Positions 47,355 to 61,703 of a stretch of DNA of 64,000 bases are shown one piece after another (position 1 is the first letter of the stretch; each line of letters begins with the position of its first letter). A program made the translations under genes and the position numbers. Below the pieces are notes generated by a model that did no database searches, was not told the DNA's origin, and saw nothing but the letters and a program-made list of their open reading frames with translations. Origin of the DNA: Planctomycetota bacterium (GTDB taxonomy: Bacteria; Planctomycetota; Planctomycetia; Planctomycetales; Planctomycetaceae); NCBI GenBank assembly GCA_003388505.1, contig QQVO01000013.1:1-64000 (forward strand), written 5' to 3'.

Positions 47355-50300
47355 TCAGCGGATTTCGTCGCCGTCTCGTTGCGACTCCGGATCAGCGCTC
47401 GTCCAGTCTTCGAGGCGGATGAGGTAGGCGGTCCCGTTGGAATTCGCGGTCAGCAGGTGCCGTTGGTCCGCGAGAAATCTGAGTTCGCGAACAGATGATC
47501 GCTGCGTGGGTGCGATCTGGATGGTGTCCGGCGGGCCGGTGAGTTCGCCGTCCCAGAGACGGATTGCACCGTTGGAGCCCGTGGACGCGATCCGCCGACC
47601 GTCGGGGCTGAATGTAAGGAAACCGCTTTTCCCGTGGTCCGCTTCGCGACGGACAACCGTCGCCTCGGCTTCGAAGTCAACGAGTTCGATGGCGCGTGCC
47701 TCTCGTCCGTAAATCGCGACGATCGGTCGATCGGGGGCGATCGCCAAAGCGGTGACGCGATTCGTTGTCGAGAAACCCCATTCAAGTTTCTTCGAGGCCG
47801 TGTCGAGAATGAGCACATCGGTGCGTTTGGAGTTCACCAGGCTTATCGCGGCGATCCACCGGCCGTCAGCGCTGACATCGAGGCAATCACATTCGCCGAG
47901 TGACGCATGTGGTTCGAGCCAATCGATCAATTGCTGTTCGTTGCCGGGAAAAGTCGCGTCGCAAAGCGCAACGAACTCCGTAGGCTGTGTCACCGCCAGC
48001 AACCGACCTGCCGGGTGGAACTCGATATCTCTGTGAGAGCCGGTCGTCGAGACTTCGAGACGCCAGAGGAACTGTTCAGACAGAGAGTTCGAATCGCGGA
48101 CGACCAGGTTCCCCATTTCATCGATGGTCGCCAGCCGTTGGCCATCCGGGCTGAACCGCACGGCCTGTCCCCATGAGTTCTTGGCGGGGATCGAACGGCT
48201 TCTGTTCGGACCAACGAGCTGTCGGATTGTTACTCTGGTTTCCGCGCCCATCATCGCCAGCGCTTCGCCGTTCGGTGCGACATCAACAGATGTCGTAGCC
48301 GAGTGATGAGACTCGATCCCGGTGACGTCTTCGCCGGTCTGTGCGTTCCACAGTCGAATCGCACAGTCGCGGCTGGCTGTCGCAATCAGAGAGCCGTCCG
48401 GACTGAAGGCAACGTCATGGACGGTCAACCGATGACCGGTCAGTTGCAGCAGGCGTTCGCCGGAATCGATATGGACGACCGCAGCGGCCATATAGTCCGA
48501 AAAGACGACGAGTTCCCCGTCGGCATCTGCCGCAACGGCCATGGTCAACGGATTGCGTCTCCGTTGGTGCAGGACTCTCGCTTGAGTTCCGGTCGCCGTC
48601 GACCAGAGGCGGACCGCGCCGTCATCGCCGGCGGAAATGAGGCTGTTGCCGTCCTGTGCGAACGTCAAACTGTTGACCGCGCCTGAGTCACCGGCGAACT
48701 CTCGAATCAAATCGCCTGATTGAAGATCCCAGAGGCGGATCGCTGCATCGCGGTGGCCCGTCGCGAGGAAGCGATCGTTCGCATCGACCGCGATGGCGCT
48801 GACGGCGGCCGCGCCGGCGCGGAAGGATTTTTCCGGATCGGTCGAGTCGAGCTTCCAGTAGCAGATCGCGCCGCCGGTGTCGGAGGAGAGGAGAGTCTCG
48901 CCCTCATTGATCCAGCACAGGCCGCTGACCGATGAGTCCCGCTGGAATTCGATCAGTCGCTCCCGTTTCTGCAGGTTGTAGACGACGATTCGCCCTCCTC
49001 TGTCGCAGGAGGCGATGAGCGTGCCATCGGGGTGGAAGGCGACGCCTTCGACGGCATCTGCGTGAGCGATGAATTCGACCTGTTCTCTCGAAGGGACGTC
49101 CCAGATTCTGACGGCCCCGTCGTGTCCGCCGGAGGCGAGCAGGGCGCCGTCGGGGCTGAAGTCGAGGGAACTGACGGTGCCCCAGTGTTTCAGCCGGCTG
49201 TCGCCGAGAATGGCGACGATCCTGCTGTTTGCTTCTGCGGCCTCACCGTCGGCGGCGACTGTTCGTTCGTACTCGGGGATGTCTTCGCGGCGGAGTGCGT
49301 CGGCGGGCCAGGGGACGCGGGGCATGAGCCGGGCGGCTTCCACGGCTGCCGCGGAGGTGTCATGGCGGCTGTGGATATCGATCAGCTCGCGGCGCAGTCT
49401 GTCGTTCTGTTCGGCCTCAGGATCGGGATCGAGCCCGGTCTCGATCTGTTTCGCGACGGAGTCGAGCCGCTCTCGTAACTTCTGCGGGATTGCGTACGGG
49501 TCGCGGCTGTCCCTCGAGATGTCCGGATCGCCGGGTTCGCTCGGCGTGAAGCGGGCCTTCACGACGGTCGTTTCGTCATCCTCGATTTCAAATTCGTCGG
49601 TGTAACTGGTGAGGCCGCGGTGCTTGACTTCGAGAGTATGCCGGCCCTCGCGGACGACGAGACTGGCGAAGGTTCTGTCGTTGCGTGTGACGATCTCGAA
49701 GTCGGACCGCCGCTCCTCGTCGATGATAATCTCGACGTCGGGGCTCGCGACCTCGATCTCAACGGTTCCCGCGTCGGTCCGGATTCGCAGCAGGACCGCA
49801 CACGCGATGAATGCGGCGACGCCGGTCAACAGCCACGGAATGAGATTCTTCGGCCGGCGTCGTGCCGGCAAGCGGCTGTCGGTCGGAAACAGGGGAGGCT
49901 GTTCCTCGGTGATTTCACCGCGCCGGCTGGCCGTTGATTCGTCGCTCCGGCTCGCAGAGCCACCGGATCGAGTGACACGCGTCACGAGCGCGGCGAGATT
50001 GCTGTCTGCACAGAACGGCTCCAGTTCTTCGATGAGTTCTGCTGGATGCGAGAATCGCTGGTCGGGGTGTTTCGCGAGCAGTTGGCCGAAGATCTGCGAA
50101 AGCCGGAATTGCTCGATCGGGTGGGGCAGGATGTCGGGAGGCAAGGCCGGCTGGGGTTCGGAGGCATGCGCCTGAATCACCTGGACCATGTTCCGACGGT
50201 CGGCGCCGCCGAAGGGGGGCGATCCGGTGAGCAGGAAGAAGAGCGTGCATCCGAGACTGTAGAGGTCGGCGCGAACGTCGGCGTGATGCGAGTCGCCGCT

Positions 50301-51641
50301 CTGTTCCGGCGCCATGTAATGGACGGTCCCGAGCATCTGGCCGGTCGCGGTCAATTCACCTTCCGGAAGTCTTTCGGAGCCGAGGCGACTCAGACCGAAA
50401 TCGAGAATCTTGACCTGACCCTCGCGGGTGATCATGAGATTCGACGGTTTGACGTCGCGGTGGACAAAGTCGTGTTCGAAGGCGTGCTGGAGTCCGATCG
50501 CCGCTTGCCGGACGACCTCGCAAGCGTCCGCGACACGGAGCGGGCCGCAAGTTCGGACAAGTTCCGAGAGATCGACGCCGTCGAGGAGTTCCATCGCAAG
50601 ATAGCACTGCCCGTCGTCTTCTCCGGCATCGTAGGCTTGAACGATGTTGGGGTGCTGGAGACGACCAACCGCCGCCATCTCCCGCCGAAACCGCAGAACT
50701 GCTTCCGGATTGTGCGCCAATTCATCCGGGAGCAACTTCAGGGCGACCATGCGCTTTAGCGAAGTGTGTTCGGCTCGATAGACCATTCCCATTCCGCCGC
50801 GCCCGATTGGCTCGATGATGCGATAGCCGCCGACTTTGGTCGGGACGCCGAGTTCGTTCGGCCCGGTTGCCACAGGTTCGGGACTCTCCGTGAGGATGGT
50901 CTTTCCGAATTCCTGCTGCAGATGAGCGACGAGGTCTTTGCACTCGCTCTCCAGAGTGAAGGGAGTCGCATGGTGATCGTCGCTCGCATCGTGGGACTGT
51001 TCTTCGACCGGCGCGGCGACGGCGGCGACTGCCAATTGATTGACGTGCTCTTCAAGTTGTTCGGCCCGCCCGAGAGCCGACTCATGACCGAGTTCACGAA
51101 CGCCGGCGACATGAGCGCGAAGAGAACTTACGACACGGTCTCGTAGTTGAGTGGCCGCGTCTTCCGGGAGGATCGAATCCTGCGGGGCGCTGTCCGGCGA
51201 CTTGAGGAATTCGCGGAGGACTGCGGACGCGATGTGATACGAGTCTTCCGTCGAGACGCCGCATTGGCGGCACCAGGCGTAAACGAGAGGGCCGGCTGTG
51301 CGGAGAAAACGACCGGGGTCGGTGCGCTTTGCCTGATCGAAGCGCTCCGGCTCAGGATCGGATCGTGGCTGTTCGTAGATCTCGCCGATCAGCTCTGCGT
51401 AGTCCGGCAGTCGCTGCTGGTAATGTTCCGGTTCGGGGATGCGGCCGGTCCCGCCGAGAAGTTCCAGTTCGACCGGGAGCAGGTAACGCAAGAATCGGGG
51501 ACGGTCTGCCTCGTCCACCCGGAGCAGATAGTCTTCAATCCTTGGCGTCCGCCCGTCGCGGTACGCCTTCTCAAACTCATCGCACAACTCATCGAAACGA
51601 CGAGCGCTGCGCAATGACTCGTTGACCGGCGGTTGATGCAT
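47355..51641 (-). CDS. membrane-anchored Ser/Thr protein kinase with WD40 repeats
   Basis: The 1428-residue product has an N-terminal region (1-250) with DELCDEFEKAYRDGRTPRIE, typical of planctomycete kinases, and a sigma-region-like stretch. The kinase domain is at about 270-530: P-loop IGRGGMGMVYRAEH, Lys in MVALKLL, HRDVKPSNLM, KILDFGLSR and HYMAPEQSG. All catalytic residues are intact. A membrane segment (about 600, IPWLLTGVAAFIACAVLL) and a PEGA-like beta domain (EVASPDVEIIIDEERRS, GRHTLEVKHRGLTSYTDEFE) follow, then WD40 repeats at about 800-1420 (WDVPSREQVEFIAHADAVEG, SDTGGAICYWKLDST, IRLWNAQTGEDVTGIE, FSPDGSLIATASRDCAIRLW). Probably signals by phosphorylation across the membrane; targets unknown. 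Confidence 0.93.
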   Translation of the reverse strand: MHQPPVNESLRSARRFDELCDEFEKAYRDGRTPRIEDYLLRVDEADRPRFLRYLLPVELELLGGTGRIPEPEHYQQRLPDYAELIGEIYEQPRSDPEPERFDQAKRTDPGRFLRTAGPLVYAWCRQCGVSTEDSYHIASAVLREFLKSPDSAPQDSILPEDAATQLRDRVVSSLRAHVAGVRELGHESALGRAEQLEEHVNQLAVAAVAAPVEEQSHDASDDHHATPFTLESECKDLVAHLQQEFGKTILTESPEPVATGPNELGVPTKVGGYRIIEPIGRGGMGMVYRAEHTSLKRMVALKLLPDELAHNPEAVLRFRREMAAVGRLQHPNIVQAYDAGEDDGQCYLAMELLDGVDLSELVRTCGPLRVADACEVVRQAAIGLQHAFEHDFVHRDVKPSNLMITREGQVKILDFGLSRLGSERLPEGELTATGQMLGTVHYMAPEQSGDSHHADVRADLYSLGCTLFFLLTGSPPFGGADRRNMVQVIQAHASEPQPALPPDILPHPIEQFRLSQIFGQLLAKHPDQRFSHPAELIEELEPFCADSNLAALVTRVTRSGGSASRSDESTASRRGEITEEQPPLFPTDSRLPARRRPKNLIPWLLTGVAAFIACAVLLRIRTDAGTVEIEVASPDVEIIIDEERRSDFEIVTRNDRTFASLVVREGRHTLEVKHRGLTSYTDEFEIEDDETTVVKARFTPSEPGDPDISRDSRDPYAIPQKLRERLDSVAKQIETGLDPDPEAEQNDRLRRELIDIHSRHDTSAAAVEAARLMPRVPWPADALRREDIPEYERTVAADGEAAEANSRIVAILGDSRLKHWGTVSSLDFSPDGALLASGGHDGAVRIWDVPSREQVEFIAHADAVEGVAFHPDGTLIASCDRGGRIVVYNLQKRERLIEFQRDSSVSGLCWINEGETLLSSDTGGAICYWKLDSTDPEKSFRAGAAAVSAIAVDANDRFLATGHRDAAIRLWDLQSGDLIREFAGDSGAVNSLTFAQDGNSLISAGDDGAVRLWSTATGTQARVLHQRRRNPLTMAVAADADGELVVFSDYMAAAVVHIDSGERLLQLTGHRLTVHDVAFSPDGSLIATASRDCAIRLWNAQTGEDVTGIESHHSATTSVDVAPNGEALAMMGAETRVTIRQLVGPNRSRSIPAKNSWGQAVRFSPDGQRLATIDEMGNLVVRDSNSLSEQFLWRLEVSTTGSHRDIEFHPAGRLLAVTQPTEFVALCDATFPGNEQQLIDWLEPHASLGECDCLDVSADGRWIAAISLVNSKRTDVLILDTASKKLEWGFSTTNRVTALAIAPDRPIVAIYGREARAIELVDFEAEATVVRREADHGKSGFLTFSPDGRRIASTGSNGAIRLWDGELTGPPDTIQIAPTQRSSVRELRFLADQRHLLTANSNGTAYLIRLEDWTSADPESQRDGDEIR

Positions 51642-51914: not shown

Positions 51915-53249
51915 TCACGTCTCGATGCCGAGTTCTTCGATCTTGCGGTAGAGGCTGGAGAGGCCGAGGCGGAGGCGTTTGGCGGCTTCGCGTTTGTCGG
52001 GCCACTGGCGGAGGACGCGCGTGATGTGCAGACGCTCGTAATGCCTGAGCGCGGAGCGGAGGTCGTCGGTGTCCGGCAGTGGTTGTCCCAGACCGAGCAG
52101 GTCGGGAGGGAGGTCGGAGGGTTCGATGGCGGTGCCGTCGCACATCATGACGGCGCGTTCGACGGCGTTGTCGAGCTGGCGGACGTTGCCTTTCCACTGG
52201 GCCGACATGAGGAGGCGGATGGTTTCGCTGGTGGCGCCGGTGACGCGCTTGCCCATTGTGCGGGAGTGCCGGGCGATGAAGTAGTCGACGAGTTCGGGGA
52301 TGTCGTCGAGGCGTTCTCTGAGGGGCGGGATGCGGATCTTGACGCCGTCGAGCCGGTAGAAGAGGTCTTCCTGGAATGTTCCCTCGCCGACGAGGCGCAT
52401 GAGATCCTGGCTGGTGGAGGCGATGATGCGGCAGGCGACCGTGTAGGTTTCGGAACCGCCGGCCGGCATGCTTTCTCCGTACTCGATGGCGCGGAGCAGC
52501 TTGGTTTGCGTGCCGGAAGGAAGCTGCGCGATCTCATCGAGATAGACGGTGCCCTCGCCGGCGCTGCGAAGGATGCCGGGCTGGCTTCCGTTCGCCGCTT
52601 CGCTGCCGAAGAGTTCGTTCTCCAGCAGTTCGGCGGGACGGGTGCCGCAGTTGACGGCGAGGAACTTGCCGTCTTTGCGGGGGCCGGCGGCGTGGATGGC
52701 CCGTGCGAAGAGTTCCTTGCCGGTGCCGGTTTCGCCGACGAGCAGGACGTTGGAATGCGCCATGGCGACCTTGGCGATGGCGTCCTGCAGTTCCTGCAGC
52801 GGTTTGGAGGAGCCGATGATCTGGTCGAAGTTGCGCGGCTGGGAGAGTTCGCGGCGGAGTTGCTGGTTCTCGAGGTACAGGTCGCGGTAATCGAAGACGC
52901 GCTGCAGCTTGTGCTCCAGGTCCTCGAAAATGACCGGCTTGACCAGATAGTCGAACGCGCCGGCCTTGAAGGCCTCGACGGAGTTCTCGACGGTGGCGTA
53001 GGCGGTGATGATCAACACGAAGGTGGACGGGTTGATCTTGTGCAGGCTGCGGAGGAGGGCGATGCCGTCGCCGTCCGGGAGTTGGACGTCGCAGACGGCG
53101 ACCTGAAAGTCCTCATCGCGGGCGAGGCTGAGCGCCTCGGCGACGGTGGCGGCTTCGGCGACGGTGTAATCTTCGCCGACGAGGAATTCGCGCAGGGTGC
53201 TGCGGATGACTTCTTCGTCTTCGACGATGAGGACGCGGCGCTGCGACAC
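51915..53249 (-). CDS. NtrC-family response regulator lacking the GAFTGA loop
   Basis: The 444-residue product starts with GTG. The receiver domain (1-118) has Asp54 in VCDVQLPDG, D11/E12 and Lys104, so it is phosphorylatable. The AAA+ domain (about 140-365) has Walker A GETGTGKE (172-179), Walker B GTVYLDEI (233-240) and QEDLFYRLDGVKI. A Fis-type HTH closes it (AAKRLRLGLSSLYRKIEELG). Between LFG (213-215) and Walker B, where GAFTGA should sit, the sequence is SEAANGSQPGILRSAGEG, about five residues short. It probably cannot engage sigma-54 and may work at sigma-70-type promoters like some NtrC relatives. No histidine kinase is adjacent. Confidence 0.9.
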   Translation of the reverse strand: MSQRRVLIVEDEEVIRSTLREFLVGEDYTVAEAATVAEALSLARDEDFQVAVCDVQLPDGDGIALLRSLHKINPSTFVLIITAYATVENSVEAFKAGAFDYLVKPVIFEDLEHKLQRVFDYRDLYLENQQLRRELSQPRNFDQIIGSSKPLQELQDAIAKVAMAHSNVLLVGETGTGKELFARAIHAAGPRKDGKFLAVNCGTRPAELLENELFGSEAANGSQPGILRSAGEGTVYLDEIAQLPSGTQTKLLRAIEYGESMPAGGSETYTVACRIIASTSQDLMRLVGEGTFQEDLFYRLDGVKIRIPPLRERLDDIPELVDYFIARHSRTMGKRVTGATSETIRLLMSAQWKGNVRQLDNAVERAVMMCDGTAIEPSDLPPDLLGLGQPLPDTDDLRSALRHYERLHITRVLRQWPDKREAAKRLRLGLSSLYRKIEELGIET

Positions 53250-53444: not shown

Positions 53445-56400
53445 CTACGCGGCGGGGCGGCGTTGCCAGGCGAAGGCGGCGGCGCCGAGGACGAAGAGGA
53501 CGAACATCAGCCAGCGGAGGGGGCCGGGGACGAGGAAGAAGCCGATGAGGCCCAAGGCGATGAGCAGTCTGGGGATGGCGCGGGCGGCGTTGCCGGCGGA
53601 GCTTGCGCGGGAGACGGCGATCGCGGCCCAGATGCCGCCGACGATCCAGAGCAGGGTCCAGAGCACGCCGAAGCCGAGGGTGAGGGTGCGGCGGGGGCGG
53701 AGGGCGAGCGTGAGTTTTGGTTCTCCGCCGACCTTGCTGAAGGTGAGTTCCTGGTTGTGGCGGGGGATGTCGATCGGGAGAGAGAGTCCGCCGGCCGCGG
53801 TCCAGGTGGGCATGGCGCCGGGTCCGGGGCCGCTGGCGTCGATGCCGGCGGCAAATTCGTCGGGTTGGACGAGACCGGCAATGGTGTGACCGGGCCAATC
53901 GTCGCGACTGATGCGTCCAGTGGCACGGTCTGGAAAGAATTGCACGTCGTCGCGCATGTAGGTGGCCGCGGGGAGTCGGGAATCAGTTTGACCGGGGACA
54001 AAAGCTTCCGTGCTATTGTGTACTGTATTCGGGTCCATTCCTGCCCCTTGTCCGCCGCCGATGCCGGCTCCGCCCCAGAACCCACCACCGCCAGGGCTGC
54101 CCGGTTGCGGTTGCCCGAACAATCTATTCTGTGCTTCCTGCTGGGCCATCTCGGCGTCGAGTTCGCCCATTCGGTCCTGCAGTTGTCTCCGCGCTTCCTC
54201 CTCGGTGAGTGCTCGGTTCTGAAACTCTTCCTGGACGACGCTCTGTTCCATCAGTTGGCGTTTGAGGTCGGAGCGGCCGGCCGATTTTTCTTTGGCCGCG
54301 GCTTCGCCCCCTTCTGCTTGCGCGGCGGCTTCGGTCTGGGCGCCGTCGAGGAAGTTGAACTTTCCTTCGAGGGCTTCCTCATCACCGGCGCTGAGGACCG
54401 GGTTGTCTTCGATGATGGCGGTGTTGTTGCCGATGACGTAGCGGCGGCCGAGGGTCTGCTCGGACATCGATTGTGATTCGTCGACGATGATCGTGCCTGA
54501 GTCGCCGTCGGTTGCTTCGAACTCGGCGATTGCTTCATTGATCGTTTCGATTTGCTCGCTGGTTTTCGCCCGGTACATCTCCCGCTGCTGCTGCTCTCTC
54601 TGGAAAACCTGATCCGTCCCCCCCTGCAGTTCGACATTCAACTGCTTGAGACTGCTGAGCGCCTGCGCTTTCTGGCGGTAACTCGCGAAGGGATCCCGGA
54701 GTTTCTTGACGAACGCGTCGATGTCGGCGTCGCGTTGGCGCTGGAGCAGCAAGAACGCTTCGACGTCGAAGTTGACATTGGTGCGGCCGGTGTCGTCGAC
54801 GGGGGAGGCGTCGAGGTCTTCGGGCAGCAGAACGCTCCAGACGGTCTGGACGACCGGCATGAAGAGGTCGGGCCGGCCGGCGGTTTCGGCTTCTTCGCGG
54901 GAGACGACGCGCGGCGCGGGGATGGAGAGTTCGCGGGCGGTGAGGTGGAAACTCTCGGGGAGGGTTTTTCCAAGCCGGCCGGCAAGGACCAGTTTGACGT
55001 CGAAAGAGAGATCGGCGGCGCTGGTCTGCGGGAGCGCGATGAGATGGACGGTCTGCTCGCCGAGCGTTGTTTTGACGGTGCGCGAGGGGACGCCCCGGAC
55101 AAAGACCGACAGGACGCGGGAGTCTTCAGGAAGATGGAGGGCGAGGAACTGATGCCCGCGATTGCGGATGGTGTAGACGGCCTGCATGCGGTAGCTGCCG
55201 TCGTATTCGAGGACCGACGTGAGGTTCGCCCCGGTGACGGTGGCGGTGGCGGCGTCGGCCTGTTGCAACCGCTGCATGCTCCACATCGGCTGCTTTCCAT
55301 CGCGGATGCGGACGATCTCGACGGCCTGGCGGAGGAGGTCGTCGCGGAGTGACAGAGGGAGTTCGTCGCGGGAGACGGGATCGATCTGGTCGGCGTCGAC
55401 CGGTGTGAGTTGCGATCCGGAGAGATTGACGAGGACGGCGTATTCGGTTTGTGCTTCCAGCGGTGCAAAAGCGCCGCCGCTGGCCGGTTGTTCCAGAACC
55501 AAGTCGGGCGAGAGCACCTGGTCGTCTTCGGGGGGCGGGAGCGAGGCGACGGCGGTGACGAGGTATTCGCCACGAACTGGGTCGAGCAGGGAGAGGGTCC
55601 AGCGGACCCGGCCGTCTTCGGTCTCTTCGGTGGTGACGCGGCGGATGCCTTCGCCGGTGAACTCCATGAGGCCGCTGAGCCAGTCGGGGCCGGTGACGAC
55701 GAAGGTGTCGGCGGCGGCGCGGGTGATCTTCCAGCGGAAGGTGAAGCCGTAGTCGATCGAAGTGTCGCTGACGACGATGAGCGAGATCGAATCGGCGGCG
55801 AGTTGGGCGACGGCGCGGGTGAGACCGAAGACGACCGGGCCGGGACTGGTTGCGTCTGATGTGAAGGCGAACTGGGCGGCCCGCGGTTCGAGGGACTTCA
55901 TCCGGTCGGAGAGGCGGGAGGGATCGGTGGTCTTCCAGCCGTCGAAGTTCTGCAATGCGGGTTCGTACGACGAATCGATCCAGACGGCGAGCGTGGTATT
56001 GAGCCGTTCGAGGTCGAGAGGCTGCGGGAGATTGACTTGCGCGGCGGCGTCGCCCGGTTCGCGGGAAATCTGACCCTGCAGTAAGACCTCGACCCGTCCG
56101 GTGCGGGGTTGGTCGAGTTCGATCGTGAGGATGCGGGGGCCTTCGGCGGGGTCGGTGATGTACCAGTCCGAGAGAAACGCCGCGGCGACGTCGGTGGCGA
56201 GATAGCCCTCGGGCAGAGCGAGCGAGACGGCCGGTCTCGGAGCGCCGCTGAGGTTGAACTCAATGCGGCTGGCGAGGATCTGTTTTCTGAGGCCGATCCG
56301 CGCGCCGTGCTCGGCTGTGGCTCTGGTTTCGGGTTCGCGGCGGGTGACGGTGATCTTCGCGGTCGCGGGCCGGGAGATGTAACGGTAAGCGGAGTGCGCC

Positions 56401-59400
56401 AGTTCGGGGACGTAGGCCGGGGCGTGCGGCATCACCTGGGCCGTGAACTGGGTGAGGTTGGTTTGTGAGAGGCCGGTCGTCGAGTCGACGCGGAGCGAGA
56501 GGTAGTCGGCTGTGTAGAGTGCGATGCGGCCGGTCTCGTGTGTGGCGTCCTGCGGGACGATCTGGGGGAGTTCGAAGCTGACGGGATCGTCCGCGACCGG
56601 GGCGGCGCGGTAGAGGTTGAGGACGAGGCTGGTCTGGTCGCCGTCTTCGATGGCCCGGCGAAGAAAGACGCGGAGGATGCGGGACTGCCCCTCTTCGTTG
56701 AGTTCCCAGCCCCCGACGTCGGGACCGACGATCTTCTGGATGTTGAGTCCGACGGGGAGCGTGAAGGAGACGTCGTTGAGGACGCCCTGCCGCACGCGGT
56801 AGAGAAGTCCCGTGCTGACGTGCAGGCCGGCGTCGTCGATATTGAAGGCGGTGGCCGCTTCGACCTCGACGACGTTGGTCACGTCGCCGCGCATGGTGCG
56901 CGGCTGCCAGGCGAGCGTGACGTCGCCGCCGCGGGCGATGGGGGTTTCGACGACGGACGCGCCGTCTTCGTCCCGCAAACGGTAAGTACCTGCGCCGCCG
57001 TTGACCCGGACGGTGAGGTTTTCGGCGGCGGGCAGCGTGAAGGAGAGGCGACCCGCCGGGACGGGCCGGAGCGGGAGGGTGAACTGGCCGGCGGGGCCGG
57101 TCATCCGTGCGGGAACCTGGAATTCGACATCGAGGACGTGCGGGCCGGGATCGCTGAGGACGATTTTGAGTGATCCGTCGGCGTAACTGAGCGGCGCCGG
57201 CTGGCCGTCGAGCGTGGATGAGGTGACGGCCACCTGGCCGAGGGGCAACGGCAGGGCCACCTGGCCGTCGCGGAGGTTGTGGACGACGTAGCGGGCGGTG
57301 ACGTTGACGGTCGGCTCGTCCTCTTCGGTGCTGAGCGAGGCGGCGTAGAGGGCTTCGGAGACCATGCCGTCGATCGGAGCGGACTCGATGCGGCGGTCTT
57401 CGGGATGGGCCTTGTTCCAGAGTCTCAAGAACTGCTGGAAGGGGAGGTAGACGCGGTCTGCCGTCGATGGGTCGGTGCCCGCTTCGTAGGGGATGACGAC
57501 GTATGGCCGGTCGTCGAGCGAGGGTTCAACCGGGACGAGCGGGGGCGCCTCCGCTGCGGGTCGAGACTCAGCTTCCGCTGGTTGTTGTTCCTCCGCGTGG
57601 GCGGCAGCGGCTGTCAAGGAGACGGCGAACAGGATGAGGCTGGCTTTGGCGGCTGATTTGGGTGCCTGTTTCGGCAGGCAACATTTGCAGTTGGCGGCGC
57701 ACCAGTGGCAGCAGCCGCGGCCGGCCCAGAGGATGGCTCCGGCGACGCCGCCGAGGAACAGACCGTCGAGCAGCGGCAGCCAGGAGACGGGGGCGATCGT
57801 CATGAGGGCGAGCGGCCCGGCCAGCAGGAGGATTGCCAGCCGGATGCGCGAGGCGAGGGTACGGCCCCGCATCAGCCAGCAGAGAAACAGCACGGCGGCC
57901 GCGACGACGAGGGAGAACATCTGCCCGGTGGTGCGGTCGGCATAGGTAAGATCGAGCGCGGCCCCGCTTTCGCCATCGCCTGCGCCGAGGTAGCGAAAGA
58001 CGCGCTCAACGGAACCCTGCGGCGGATGGACGGCGATGGAGAGGGAGAGGAGCGCGCCGCGCGCGGTGGGACGGCCGAACAACTGTTGCTGAGCTGCCAG
58101 GTCATCCACGTGCGTCTCCAGCGTCGTGCTTTCCGTCGGCTGTCGAGAATCGGCGGTGGGCGTCTGGGTTCCGTCTTGCCCGGGAGCGGAATCTTCTCCT
58201 GCGGCAGCCGGTTCTCCTTCAGGCGTTGCGGCGGTTGTCGGCGGCGGAGGCTCTGCCGGCGGCGGCGCATCCCCCGGCTTGGCTATTTCGTCGACGCGAT
58301 TCTGTGCTCCGGTGTTCTGACGCAGCAGTTCATCCCTCTGTTCGTTCGACATCGGGGCGTCGCCGAAGGGGTCGGGTGCTGCGCCGTCGACTTTGTCACC
58401 CATGTCACCGGAGATTTGCCCTTCCGCGAAATCAGTTTCCAGGTCAGCGATTGACCCTTCCGTAACGGACAGCGTCTGCGAGACCGTCGAATCAAGCTCA
58501 ACGCTCTCCGCTGCAGGCATTCCGGCGCCACCAACCATCGGCGATGTCGCATCCGTATCATAGTCGTGCGTCGCAGTTCCCCTTTGCCAGTAATCGTTTT
58601 CAACCTGCGTACGTTGTGCGGCTTCGCGGGCTTGTTGCGTGGCTGGCAAGAGAAGCACGAAGAGGACGCAGCCGAGAATGAGAACCCCCACCACAACACC
58701 CAAGATGCGGTAGTTCCGGAAACCGAGCGAGAGAACCCAGAGGACAACGATGGTAATCGCCACCGCGATGACGCCGGACCAGATGTCGCGGGGGGAGGGG
58801 GCGGAGAAGGTCTGTTCGAGGCGGCCGAGGAGGCTGCCCCGGTCGAGTTCGCCCGTCGGGTGGAAACGGCCGTCGCTTTCGACGATGAGGGTTTCGCCGG
58901 AGTGGTAGAGCGTCCACTGCTGGTCGAGAATGACCAGCGGTTGTTCCTTGCCGTTTCCGCTGATGGCCGAGAGTTGCGGCGGCGATTGGCGGAGGTGGCC
59001 GGACGACTCATCGAGGGGCGCGACTTTGGTGTGGTAGGAGAGGGTGACGGTGCGCTGCTGTTCCGGGTCGCTGACCGGGGGGAGGGTGATCAGCACCCCG
59101 TCTGCGGCGCGGCGGACTTCGACCGGGTTGCCGTCGACGAGGGTGGCCCAGAGTTCGGCTGGCGCGCCGTCATCGCTGCCGGGGAGCCGGAGTTTGAGGT
59201 TCTGCACGCCGACGGCGGTGAGGGTGAGGTCGGCCTGATGCTGGAAGTCGCCCGTCTTTCCGAGGACGCTCTTGATCTCGGCCCGGTGGACCACGGCGGT
59301 GGGGACGGGTTCGCGGTCGTCGCGGTAGGAGGTGGGGGCGATCGACATCTGCCAGCCCGCGTGAACGTACTGGTAACCGGCGACGACCCGCTCGGCGGGA

Positions 59401-61703
59401 ATGTAGTAGGAGGGGGGAAAGTCGACGGGGTCCACGGTCTGGAGCGGTCGGCCGTCGGCGGTCGTGGCGGTGATTTCCAGGTATTGCTCGTTGCCGGCTT
59501 CGATGGCGACGTGTCCGGTTTGCCGGTCGGCGGTGAGGACGTTGAGCCGGAAGGGGCTGTAGGTTTCGGCTGCCGCATCGCGCGGGGTTTGCACGTCAAC
59601 GAGGAGGACGAGGTCGCCCCGCGCACGGCGATCGAGGGCGAGAGTCCAGGTGCGCATGCCGTCGGCCGGGTCGGCGGGCCGCTGCTCGACAATGCGGACG
59701 GCATCGACGGGCGGATAGATGGACGATTGGACTTGCCCTGCCTGGATCACAAATGGTCGGATCAACTGGAAGCGGAGATCGGTCCCGGCCGATTCGGAGA
59801 CGGCGACCTGAAGCTCGCGGACGCCGCCCCCTTCGATGGTCAGGTGCGCTTCGAGATGTGAGAAGAGGGTTTCGGGATCGATGCGGAAGAACGTGACCGT
59901 TCCCGCCGAGATGCGGGACGGCTTGCGGGAGGCTTCGAGTTGCCCGGTGAAGACGGTGTCCTGATAGGTGAACCCGAGCCGGACCTGTTTACCGAGCGGG
60001 GCGAGTTTGGAGTTGAGGAGCGCGACGTCTTCGGAGCCGGCGGGGTCGAGGCCGTTGATTTCGATGGGAGCGATTTCGAGGTCGCCGTCGGCGGTGACGC
60101 CGTACAGCGCTTCGATGACGCCGGCCTGCGGGAGGCGGACTTCCGGCAGCGCGAAGCGAACCGGTTCCTGCTCGACGGGCCAGTTGTCGAGGTCGCGGTG
60201 TGCGGCGATGGTGATCTGCCGTGTCTCGTTGATGCCGAGGGGAGTCGTGAGCGGGATGCGGATGTCGTGCACCCCGGCCTCGAGAGGGACGGTGCGCCAG
60301 TCGGCCTGCTGGCCGGCGATTGCGGCCGAGGTGACGATCCAATCGGCCGGGATTCGCAGGCGGACGTCAAAGAGCGGGGCGAAGAGGGTGCGGACATCGA
60401 GCGTGACATAGAGATCGAGGCCTTCCGCATTGACGTCGAGCAGGGTCGTCATCGCCGCGTGGACTTCGCGTTCTTTGGAGGCGGTGATGAAGCTGAGGAG
60501 AAAGTCCTGCTCCCACACTTCGTATTCCAGCGAGGGGGCAGCCGGGTCCATGGCGGTTTCCGGCAGGACGGGCCGGACGCCGCTCGACTGCGTCAACTGG
60601 ACGCGGGTTCCCGGGTTGTAGTTGACGACCGCGCGGCCGACGTGGGAGGCGACGCTGCCGATGATGAGGTTGGGAACGGTCCAGGGCTGGCCGGGGGAGG
60701 TGGTGACGACGCCGCTGAAGGTGACGGAGCGGTTCTCGCTGAACGGCTGGCGGTAGGTGAGGGTGATCTCGATCCGCTCACCGTCCTCCGAGTCGGCCAG
60801 TTCCCACGATTCGAGACCGTTCGATTGGACGTCGGTGATTTCGAGCGTATTCGGCACCGAGCACACGAGACGATCGATCGTCCGGCCGAAGACCTGCAGT
60901 GAGGTCAGCGCCCGCCAGGTGACTTCGCCCGGTGCGACGTAGACGCCGAACGCGGTGTTGGCGAGTACGAAGGCATCTCCGGAGGCGGTTGACTGCCGAT
61001 CGGAGAGGCGGAGTTCGATGCGGCGGTCGCCGCTGACCGAACCGCCGATGGGGACTTCGTAGACGGCTTCTTCTTCGACGGGGGCGGGCCGTTCGATTTC
61101 GAGGCCGCCGATGGAGAGATAGCTGCCGGCGGGCACGGTCATGCGGAGTTGCCCGGTGGGGGTGGCGAAGGTGGCGAAGCCGGCGACCTTGTCGCTGCCG
61201 ATCGAATTGAGGACTGCGGCCGCTTCGATCGTGACCGAGTGCGGGCCGGGTTCACTGATGTAGAGGAGGAGGTTATCGCCGTTTTCGGGAGGGCGGGCGA
61301 TGCGGGCCGGTTCTCCGTCGAGCGCGACGCTTTCGACGCCCAGCCCCGCGGCGGGGATGGTGAGCCGCATCCAGCCGTCGGCGAAGTTCGTGAACCGGGC
61401 AGTGATGGTGACGAGCAGTTGTTCGCCGTCGACGCGGGCTTCGTAATCAGCGGCGGAGAGGACGAGTCCTTCCGGCGTATTGGGGGAATCGCCGGCATTT
61501 TCGGCGGCGAGGGTTTCGAGTTCCTCCAGTTCGTCGAGCGGCAGGAGGACGCCCTTGTTGTCGCGGTTGAGGACGGCGTCGAGGTCTTCGACCGGGACGT
61601 AGATGCGTCGCACCGTCGGTTGCCCGGCGTTGTCCTGCGCGTGGACGGCTGTGCCCAGGAGGAGCAGAGTTGCCAGGAGTGGTTTGAGGAATCGATCGAG
61701 CAT
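53445..61703 (-). CDS. giant two-half envelope membrane protein of unknown function
   Basis: This 2752-residue protein starts with a signal peptide (FLKPLLATLLLLGTAVHA). Half 1 (about 25-960) and half 2 (about 1375-2300) are beta-rich and similar in order: a LPLDELEEL / LPFQQFLRL lead, a TITARFTNFADG / NVTARYVVHNLRDG strand, then ISEPGPHSVTIE / LSDPGPHVLDVE. Between them lie two helices (about 970-1020) with LLLPATQQAREAAQRTQ, a Pro-rich linker, about three helices (1260-1325), a Cys cluster CCHWCAANCKCC (about 1330-1341) and LILFAVSLTAAAAHAEEQ, an internal signal-peptide-like segment (about 1350-1368). The tail has Gln-rich coiled coil (2335-2520), a Gly stretch and two helices. It looks like two exported proteins fused; no known family is recognised. 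Confidence 0.8.
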   Translation of the reverse strand: MLDRFLKPLLATLLLLGTAVHAQDNAGQPTVRRIYVPVEDLDAVLNRDNKGVLLPLDELEELETLAAENAGDSPNTPEGLVLSAADYEARVDGEQLLVTITARFTNFADGWMRLTIPAAGLGVESVALDGEPARIARPPENGDNLLLYISEPGPHSVTIEAAAVLNSIGSDKVAGFATFATPTGQLRMTVPAGSYLSIGGLEIERPAPVEEEAVYEVPIGGSVSGDRRIELRLSDRQSTASGDAFVLANTAFGVYVAPGEVTWRALTSLQVFGRTIDRLVCSVPNTLEITDVQSNGLESWELADSEDGERIEITLTYRQPFSENRSVTFSGVVTTSPGQPWTVPNLIIGSVASHVGRAVVNYNPGTRVQLTQSSGVRPVLPETAMDPAAPSLEYEVWEQDFLLSFITASKEREVHAAMTTLLDVNAEGLDLYVTLDVRTLFAPLFDVRLRIPADWIVTSAAIAGQQADWRTVPLEAGVHDIRIPLTTPLGINETRQITIAAHRDLDNWPVEQEPVRFALPEVRLPQAGVIEALYGVTADGDLEIAPIEINGLDPAGSEDVALLNSKLAPLGKQVRLGFTYQDTVFTGQLEASRKPSRISAGTVTFFRIDPETLFSHLEAHLTIEGGGVRELQVAVSESAGTDLRFQLIRPFVIQAGQVQSSIYPPVDAVRIVEQRPADPADGMRTWTLALDRRARGDLVLLVDVQTPRDAAAETYSPFRLNVLTADRQTGHVAIEAGNEQYLEITATTADGRPLQTVDPVDFPPSYYIPAERVVAGYQYVHAGWQMSIAPTSYRDDREPVPTAVVHRAEIKSVLGKTGDFQHQADLTLTAVGVQNLKLRLPGSDDGAPAELWATLVDGNPVEVRRAADGVLITLPPVSDPEQQRTVTLSYHTKVAPLDESSGHLRQSPPQLSAISGNGKEQPLVILDQQWTLYHSGETLIVESDGRFHPTGELDRGSLLGRLEQTFSAPSPRDIWSGVIAVAITIVVLWVLSLGFRNYRILGVVVGVLILGCVLFVLLLPATQQAREAAQRTQVENDYWQRGTATHDYDTDATSPMVGGAGMPAAESVELDSTVSQTLSVTEGSIADLETDFAEGQISGDMGDKVDGAAPDPFGDAPMSNEQRDELLRQNTGAQNRVDEIAKPGDAPPPAEPPPPTTAATPEGEPAAAGEDSAPGQDGTQTPTADSRQPTESTTLETHVDDLAAQQQLFGRPTARGALLSLSIAVHPPQGSVERVFRYLGAGDGESGAALDLTYADRTTGQMFSLVVAAAVLFLCWLMRGRTLASRIRLAILLLAGPLALMTIAPVSWLPLLDGLFLGGVAGAILWAGRGCCHWCAANCKCCLPKQAPKSAAKASLILFAVSLTAAAAHAEEQQPAEAESRPAAEAPPLVPVEPSLDDRPYVVIPYEAGTDPSTADRVYLPFQQFLRLWNKAHPEDRRIESAPIDGMVSEALYAASLSTEEDEPTVNVTARYVVHNLRDGQVALPLPLGQVAVTSSTLDGQPAPLSYADGSLKIVLSDPGPHVLDVEFQVPARMTGPAGQFTLPLRPVPAGRLSFTLPAAENLTVRVNGGAGTYRLRDEDGASVVETPIARGGDVTLAWQPRTMRGDVTNVVEVEAATAFNIDDAGLHVSTGLLYRVRQGVLNDVSFTLPVGLNIQKIVGPDVGGWELNEEGQSRILRVFLRRAIEDGDQTSLVLNLYRAAPVADDPVSFELPQIVPQDATHETGRIALYTADYLSLRVDSTTGLSQTNLTQFTAQVMPHAPAYVPELAHSAYRYISRPATAKITVTRREPETRATAEHGARIGLRKQILASRIEFNLSGAPRPAVSLALPEGYLATDVAAAFLSDWYITDPAEGPRILTIELDQPRTGRVEVLLQGQISREPGDAAAQVNLPQPLDLERLNTTLAVWIDSSYEPALQNFDGWKTTDPSRLSDRMKSLEPRAAQFAFTSDATSPGPVVFGLTRAVAQLAADSISLIVVSDTSIDYGFTFRWKITRAAADTFVVTGPDWLSGLMEFTGEGIRRVTTEETEDGRVRWTLSLLDPVRGEYLVTAVASLPPPEDDQVLSPDLVLEQPASGGAFAPLEAQTEYAVLVNLSGSQLTPVDADQIDPVSRDELPLSLRDDLLRQAVEIVRIRDGKQPMWSMQRLQQADAATATVTGANLTSVLEYDGSYRMQAVYTIRNRGHQFLALHLPEDSRVLSVFVRGVPSRTVKTTLGEQTVHLIALPQTSAADLSFDVKLVLAGRLGKTLPESFHLTARELSIPAPRVVSREEAETAGRPDLFMPVVQTVWSVLLPEDLDASPVDDTGRTNVNFDVEAFLLLQRQRDADIDAFVKKLRDPFASYRQKAQALSSLKQLNVELQGGTDQVFQREQQQREMYRAKTSEQIETINEAIAEFEATDGDSGTIIVDESQSMSEQTLGRRYVIGNNTAIIEDNPVLSAGDEEALEGKFNFLDGAQTEAAAQAEGGEAAAKEKSAGRSDLKRQLMEQSVVQEEFQNRALTEEEARRQLQDRMGELDAEMAQQEAQNRLFGQPQPGSPGGGGFWGGAGIGGGQGAGMDPNTVHNSTEAFVPGQTDSRLPAATYMRDDVQFFPDRATGRISRDDWPGHTIAGLVQPDEFAAGIDASGPGPGAMPTWTAAGGLSLPIDIPRHNQELTFSKVGGEPKLTLALRPRRTLTLGFGVLWTLLWIVGGIWAAIAVSRASSAGNAARAIPRLLIALGLIGFFLVPGPLRWLMFVLFVLGAAAFAWQRRPAA

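Follow-up and report, generated by a model that had tools for sequence, protein, structure and literature searches.

The 64,000-nucleotide stretch analyzed here (hereafter the window; contig QQVO01000013.1 of a bacterium of the Planctomycetaceae) carries on its minus strand, at 53445..61703, an open reading frame (ORF) for a giant protein of 2752 amino acids (aa). From the N- to the C-terminus, this protein includes a signal-peptide-like start recognized by eye, a first ectodomain, a hairpin of two transmembrane (TM) helices named TM1 and TM2, a linker, the TM3-TM4 pair, a second ectodomain, a helical segment and a final TM5-TM6 pair. Ectodomain 1 (residues 62-962; 58818..61520, minus strand) is all-beta in an AlphaFold model, and ectodomain 2 (residues 1452-2312; 54768..57350, minus strand) is homologous to it across almost the full length (hhalign probability 100, E 1.8e-40, 816 aligned columns). 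In the hairpin, TM1 (residues 973-995; 58719..58787, minus strand), identified by hydropathy and by a model helix at 971-997, is not DUF1559-like. The following residues 999-1051 (58551..58709, minus strand) are, and they comprise TM2, a stalk and a weaker continuation to HDYDTD. Within this stretch stands the block GVLILGCVLFVLLLPATQQAREAAQRTQ (residues 1006-1033; 58605..58688, minus strand), most likely a vestige of the N-terminal helix of DUF1559 (PF07596) pseudopilins. It lies inside the interval 58600-58712, to which an original prediction made from the DNA letters alone had drawn attention.

The AlphaFold model, covering residues 40-1075 (mean predicted local distance difference test, pLDDT, of 82; predicted template modelling score, pTM, of 0.44), places after helix 971-997 a single unbroken helix, 999-1042, which contains the block, at modest confidence. 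Searched with Foldseek, the ectodomain 1 model retrieves integrin alpha chains, ribophorin I (of the oligosaccharyltransferase) and alpha-2-macroglobulin, which consist of similar strings of beta domains and stand as fold analogies only, their target-normalised TM-scores being low (at most 0.36 among the matches listed). Searches for an ectodomain function by fold or sequence returned such strings of beta domains and one PDB sequence match with an E-value of 0.25, and a Pfam scan assigned no family to the giant or to the 1176-aa gene upstream of it.

The likeness to DUF1559 was measured with a profile of 30 N-termini taken from the window's own genome, in which Pfam finds 49 PF07596 matches. 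This N-terminal profile aligns with residues 1003-1051 of the giant at 38.2 bits (independent E-value 1.5e-12, in a search of 31 sequences), the likeness extending past the block noted earlier (VENDYWQRGTATHDY vs CKNNLKQIGLALHNY). In a specificity control spanning 715,115 residues, made up of all ORFs of at least 60 aa in the window and 31 other loci, 17 matches of at least 8 bits were obtained, 4 of them in true DUF1559 genes and 13 in the giant. The latter fall at two equivalent sites, around residues 1000-1080 (site 1) and 2300-2480 (site 2), the number being 1321 in L091, which has a longer open frame (loci and their giants are designated by L numbers). Reversed sequences yielded a single match reaching 8 bits (9.0), located in an ORF that runs antisense to a DUF1559 gene. 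In the 134 giants scanned with the DUF1559 profile, every match of at least 8 bits falls at one of the two sites. With this score and this reversed-sequence control, the nearly residue-for-residue match claimed in the original prediction holds.

The window also contains two ordinary DUF1559 genes, one near 9.1-10.1 kb and the other near 15.1-16.2 kb. Both pass the prepilin model TIGR02532 (33.6 and 17.7 bits, for a cut-off of 16.3), and the N-terminal helix of the first one matches PilA and GspG chains of the PDB by phmmer, so that the status of DUF1559 as a pseudopilin family is borne out by test. The giant shares with them a TM helix followed by an LPA-Q-AREAA stalk, as seen in the profile matches and the AlphaFold model. 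The DUF1559 globular domain is absent from the window protein, where the full-length profile covers model positions 13-61 only, plus a 1.1-bit stretch near residue 2365. Nor does the unit stand at a mature N-terminus: the block lies at residue 1006 of 2752 and the site-1 piece has no prepilin motif (no TIGR02532 match), in agreement with the claim of a mid-protein position lacking a cleavable N-terminus.

Orthologues of the giant are common: a search with a 205-residue piece detects it in 125 of the 170 family genomes, with named matches in Schlesneria, Gimesia, Planctomicrobium and Fuerstiella. Counts given below refer to 100 Planctomycetaceae giants whose ectodomain 1 is genuine, a subset drawn from these 170 genomes; they result from 102 sequences after removal of L069 and L071, C-terminal fragments whose genomes are counted via another piece (eight sequences of an earlier set were contig-edge fragments). 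The block is kept at the same place, with at least 8 bits against the DUF1559 profile, in 27 of the 100 giants and in 15 genera, which answers the concern that no orthologue might retain it. The strongest scores at site 1 belong to L140 from an uncultured Schlesneria (71.6 bits), L231 from Gimesia (59.0 bits) and L236 from Schlesneria (53.6 bits). PF07596 itself (cut-off 23.3) was scanned at site 1 on the window protein, L236, L231, L208, L301, L302, L317, L342 and L343. Among the 125-residue site-1 pieces, those of L236 (37.5 bits) and L231 (26.8 bits) pass and that of L208 just misses (23.1 bits). The comparison with the DUF1559 hidden Markov model proposed in the original prediction thus succeeds on these orthologues and fails on the window protein, which goes unreported whole or as a 125-residue piece and whose copy is therefore partial.

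At the level of the family, a site-1 profile built from 89 giants aligns with that of DUF1559 (hhalign probability 97.6, P 3.3e-12), the alignment placing the arginine loop before TM2 on the prepilin RR-G. In L236, the likeness continues to GLPSHYY, where DUF1559 proteins have their FPP loop. A short LPSxYYLxD-like motif also occurs in the linker of L195, L196, L240, L242, L192 and L381, most of which are without the helix; this linker motif may be the last trace of the FPP loop. In Gimesia, eight of the 15 giants keep LMLPAVQQSREAA, the other seven displaying LMLPSAQKAR, LLLPALDSPR, LLMPVLNSKR, LLMPALNSKR or nothing similar.

Across the class, giants were detected in 127 of 397 genomes at E <=1e-80, 16 of these genomes being outside the Planctomycetaceae, and some of these distant giants carry more than a helix. 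L343 (2816 aa) includes a complete in-frame DUF1559 domain at residues 1110-1355 (213.7 bits, model positions 2-282 of 285), L342 and L344 include complete in-frame domains as well (212.7 and 211.6 bits), and L301, from another family, includes a diverged one (55.3 bits, model positions 8-263). These whole-domain giants are three of the 20 fetched from family f7 plus the single genome of family f6 (L301), the remaining other-family loci having been scanned with the N-terminal profile only, which reaches 8 bits in L301, L317 and L304. On whole giants, PF07596 scores 175.6 bits for L343, 167.8 for L342 and 71.2 for L301, with L302 and L317 below cut-off, and the C-terminal H-X9-DG signature exceeds its cut-off in L342, L343 and L344. 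A TM helix within 110 residues after ectodomain 1 is found in 100 of 100 Planctomycetaceae giants, in the four with an embedded domain and in none of 26 typical other-family giants (L360 and L361 have no usable ectodomain-1 end). The prepilin motif fades from KKGSFTLVE in L343 to GGTLVE in L342 and QLKLAE in L344, that of L343 standing just under the cut-offs (TIGR02532, 13.8 vs 16.3; N_methyl, 18.9 vs 21.2).

In a tree comprising those of the 77 free DUF1559 domains found that score above 100 bits, the embedded domains of L342, L343, L344 and L301 form one clade with a support of 0.996, apart from the free domains. Together with the presence of whole domains at the same place in these four giants, this clade sustains the descent from DUF1559 proteins that the original prediction had put forward. 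When the giants themselves are compared, with typical other-family giants as outgroup, the Planctomycetaceae clade has L342-L344 as its closest neighbours, and L301 separates one step earlier. Ultrafast bootstrap (UFBoot) support, obtained on 38 of 124 sequences, is 100 for the Planctomycetaceae, 90 when L342-L344 are added and 100 when L301 is added too, and FastTree, run with L357 and L361 omitted, gives the same order.

The block is thus very probably the remnant of a DUF1559 pseudopilin that an ancestral giant carried whole in the middle of its chain. This ancestor would have had two homologous ectodomains of about 870 residues each and, between them, TM1 followed by a complete pseudopilin consisting of TM2, an amphipathic stalk and a globular domain. 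Its pseudopilin would still be whole in L342, L343 and L344 and, in diverged form, in L301, while the globular part would have been lost in the stem of the Planctomycetaceae giants, leaving TM2 and the start of the stalk. Later, many genera may have let the stalk drift while keeping the two membrane helices, and others, Gimesia foremost, may have kept the stalk. The homology, the whole domains embedded in giants, the order of the tree and the saturation of the codons (see below) are all direct observations.

How far the stalk is maintained can be judged from pairs of related giants. Where synonymous sites are saturated, namely in five Gimesia pairs, identity amounts to 94% over the 17-residue block, 17-70% over TM1 and 41-53% over the linker; in the close pair L219/L215, the block is 100% identical vs 72%. 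All in all, the block is at least as conserved as any compared stretch in six of seven Gimesia pairs. The stalk is accordingly under purifying selection in some lineages, most clearly in Gimesia, and for part of this genus the constraint is apparent from the data.

Several observations weigh against the descent of the block from a whole embedded pseudopilin, or against its maintenance since. Besides the failure of Pfam to report the window protein and its missing prepilin motif, 73 of the 100 Planctomycetaceae giants stay below 8 bits at site 1, and ten of these, in genera g56, g57 and g73, even below 3 bits. The helices of the hairpin reach a pLDDT of only about 55-76 in the AlphaFold model. 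In the trees, the FastTree support for a Planctomycetaceae clade without L342-L344 is only 0.68, the outgroup is not a single clade with UFBoot, and preferring a loss in the stem to a double gain outside is a matter of parsimony on four giants. Two typical giants of family f7, L347 and L351, carry the relics LLLPSIQCSREAARE and LLTPASQYSRESARR without membrane helices (9.9 and 10.7 bits), so that the insertion may be older than this account has it. Furthermore, the assemblies that yielded L342-L344 are drafts in 440-720 contigs, one of them 9% contaminated, and genomes G272 (L343/L352) and G291 (L344/L348) each hold a second, typical f7 giant; the family placing of L342-L344 could therefore be wrong, their organism being less certain than their sequence. 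Sixteen of the 27 block-bearing Planctomycetaceae giants read PAV like free DUF1559 proteins, vs seven reading PAT. As to conservation, the block of the Gimesia pair L237/L240 is 82% identical vs 96% for the ectodomain, Schlesneria blocks are 76-88% identical, with a ratio of nonsynonymous to synonymous substitution rates (dN/dS) of 0.05-0.32 vs 0.33-0.40 for the linker, and every pair was selected for having the block in both members, a choice that biases the comparison in its favour, seven of the 15 Gimesia giants having lost it. Finally, the helix of site 2, described below, is not explained by a pseudopilin event at site 1.

As a side observation on G272 and G291, the giant with the embedded pseudopilin is in both cases nearer to the Planctomycetaceae giants, the other one being typical of f7, a pairing that may reflect either transfer or misbinning.

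Regarding topology, which beyond hydropathy and the model can only be deduced, TM1 would take the chain from the outside to the cytoplasmic face, where a short basic loop would turn it, and TM2 would return it outward in the orientation of a pseudopilin, the LPA-Q-AREAA stalk leaving the membrane into the long linker. The hairpin and stalk could anchor the giant in the membrane so that both ectodomains stay on one side of it, while the conserved AREAA face would lie against another helix there, a role about as probable as its contrary. A more specific function, compatible with descent and akin to the packing suggested in the original prediction, which the neighbouring genes neither support nor exclude, would be docking: in lineages that retain it, the AREAA stalk would have DUF1559 pseudopilins or the assembly platform as partners, and the giant would be kept next to pseudopilin assemblies. 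Such docking is consistent with the conservation of the block in six of the seven Gimesia pairs, with the modelling of TM2 and stalk as one helix, as in pilins, and with the matches of the same helix of free DUF1559 proteins to PilA and GspG chains of solved structures. It is nevertheless unlikely, given that the window protein lacks a cleavable N-terminus and the glutamate at the pilin position, that most of the giants (73 of 100) fall below 8 bits, and that a Pfam scan of 15 ORFs flanking the giant and its upstream partner detected no pilus or type II secretion gene. Matches to an ATPase of the type II secretion type occur at 15 places of the genome, all outside the window, with the nearest listed at position 85750 of the same contig.

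Somewhat more doubtful is the idea that the embedded pseudopilin is still processed in L343-like giants, the window protein being a descendant that is no longer cut and has kept the hairpin. The near-intact KKGSFTLVE of L343 falls in the loop joining TM1 to TM2, which is predicted to be on the cytoplasmic side, where prepilin peptidase acts. If this were true, cleavage would give an anchored ectodomain-1 chain and a new mature-pseudopilin chain bearing ectodomain 2, in other words a pilin-like subunit made from a polyprotein.

Recurrent gene conversion, by which the multicopy DUF1559 genes would overwrite short stretches of the giant and lend it their likeness, would have an abundant template, with 49 DUF1559 matches in the window's genome and 38 to 133 in five others. 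It would also suit the scatter of the block across many clades in a tree of 84 giants and the very high local identity seen in single taxa such as L079 (STLIQAVVVTGIIGILVFLMLPAVQQSREAARRS). At residues identical between giant and DUF1559, however, codon agreement is within 0.02 of, or below, the expectation from codon usage in six of six genomes, with 4 to 27 DUF1559 genes of the same genome entering each comparison. For the window, 108 of 386 codons agree, i.e., 0.28 vs 0.50 expected. Because there is no codon excess, the copy is regarded as old and inherited, and recent conversion is rejected in these six genomes. Besides the single clade of the whole embedded domains, the sequence QQSR also argues against overwriting, as it is common to the eight Gimesia blocks (8/8 with the block), L079, L221 and L083, whereas free DUF1559 proteins have A at its S position in 28 of 28 N-termini from five genomes (A in 66 and S in one of 67 in a wider set). 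Gene conversion, even as a recurrent process, is thus very improbable as the source of the likeness. In favour of descent from an embedded pseudopilin, the window giant shares the T of LLLPAT with six other Planctomycetaceae giants and with L342-L344, a reading never seen in the 77 free domains; free DUF1559 proteins with a readable motif have PAV in 68 of 69 cases and PAI in one (among the DUF1559 genes of the window's genome, L007, L009, L074 and L075 have no readable motif). A chance or convergent resemblance, in which a membrane helix happens to precede a charged one, could draw some credit from the Pfam miss of the window sequence by itself and from the weak matches of hydrophobic segments to many families. 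It is rejected as next to impossible by the ORF and reversed-sequence controls, the specific position, the family-wide profile match and the whole domains at the same place in L342-L344.

A second DUF1559-like helix, site 2, stands after ectodomain 2 much as site 1 does after ectodomain 1. In the window protein, it corresponds to residues 2342-2362, YRQKAQALSSLKQLNVELQGG (54618..54680, minus strand), and is below scoring, being strong in some orthologues such as L084 (residues 2433-2454, RMQATNNLKQIGLALHNYHEGN) and L085 (residues 2327-2349), the site-2 pieces of which pass the PF07596 cut-off (36.0 and 29.2 bits). The best cases read RRxQAxNNLKQIGLALHNY, for a family consensus A..NLKQL...L. 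Of 98 Planctomycetaceae sequences in which site 2 could be tested, 22 score at least 8 bits, and a site-2 profile of 86 giants matches DUF1559 with P 1.5e-8. Sites 1 and 2 were rejected as halves of one split helix since both overlap in the DUF1559 profile, and a direct comparison of the site-1 and site-2 profiles gave no match. Matches resembling site 2 are also present in L355 (15.7 bits), a giant devoid of the hairpin, and in L304 (8.4 bits), a fragment from another family. This suggests that site 2 is a separate and perhaps older feature, which may be either an older DUF1559 relic or a convergence. In L084, NYTGVVDGTSNTLQSG follows site 2 and resembles the DGTSNT motif of DUF1559 (2.5 bits).

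Modular pilins begin with the pilin unit and carry the added domain behind it, whereas the giant has an ectodomain on both sides of the unit. What they have in common is a pilin unit joined to unrelated domains, modular pilins being described in PMC10191384 as domains grafted onto a pilin, with the prepilin peptidase cutting on the cytoplasmic side. Classic DUF1559/SBP_bac_10 (PF07596) proteins share with the giants the TM helix and the LLLPA-Q-AREAA-R-TQ stalk, to which L342-L344 add the whole H-X9-DG domain. The best 30 of the window's genome come from open frames 306-482 aa long and almost always begin with the prepilin motif, whereas the giants carry the unit in the middle of a multi-helix chain of 2700-2900 aa and the window protein keeps the helix only. 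Proteins combining a prepilin motif with SBP_bac_10 are reported as heavily expanded, some members having Sec signal peptides (PMC8567305), and 68 DUF1559 paralogues, two of them essential, form the biggest paralogue group of Planctopirus limnophila (PMC10632474). Members with other N-termini, such as the Sec and SBP_bac_10 combination (PMC8567305) and L072 and L073 here, likewise have no cleavable prepilin N-terminus, but no duplicated ectodomains are seen around their unit as in the giant. L072 (L072:9419-10273, minus strand) has an ordinary membrane helix in place of the prepilin signal, and its VVGGTLLLGCGGLILLLLPAVQQAREAARRTQ is the best match to the window block among the listed DUF1559 genes of the same genome (57% identity). 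L073 (L073:7705-10230, minus strand) is an 842-aa protein in which the unit begins near residue 616.

Within titles and abstract openings, a scope that leaves outside Mahajan et al. 2020 and most subscription work, no report of a DUF1559 unit inside a giant protein was found. The giants with whole domains link DUF1559 to another set of very large envelope proteins, present in several families of the class, and they illustrate the fate of a pilin unit locked inside another protein, the head of which would be lost and the membrane helix retained. Descent from an embedded pseudopilin would also explain a block that otherwise resembles mimicry, and it lends itself to a precise prediction on internal prepilin cleavage in L343-type giants.

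The gene upstream of the window giant (1176 aa; L077:1770-5300, minus strand, about 61.8-65.3 kb of the window's contig) looks like a paralogue of the giant's ectodomains. A same-strand ORF of 1118-1598 aa adjoins the giant in 26 of 26 loci whose 5' flank is covered (L069, L070, L071 and L090, in which this flank is missing, are excluded), and the ectodomain-1 profile picks up ORFs of this type as paralogues, as profile matches rather than locus by locus. Twin-ectodomain giants of the class Planctomycetia being defined by two homologous ectodomains and an upstream ORF of more than 1100 residues on the same strand, the window giant is one of them. A secretion operon context was rejected, the neighbouring ORFs scanned including, among others, a phosphotransferase, an esterase-like hydrolase, a porphobilinogen deaminase and a HEAT-repeat protein. 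Just downstream of the giant lies an NtrC-type sigma-54 response regulator (51915-53249, minus strand), and a protein kinase of 1428 aa with WD40 propeller repeats is encoded at 47355-51641 on the same strand.

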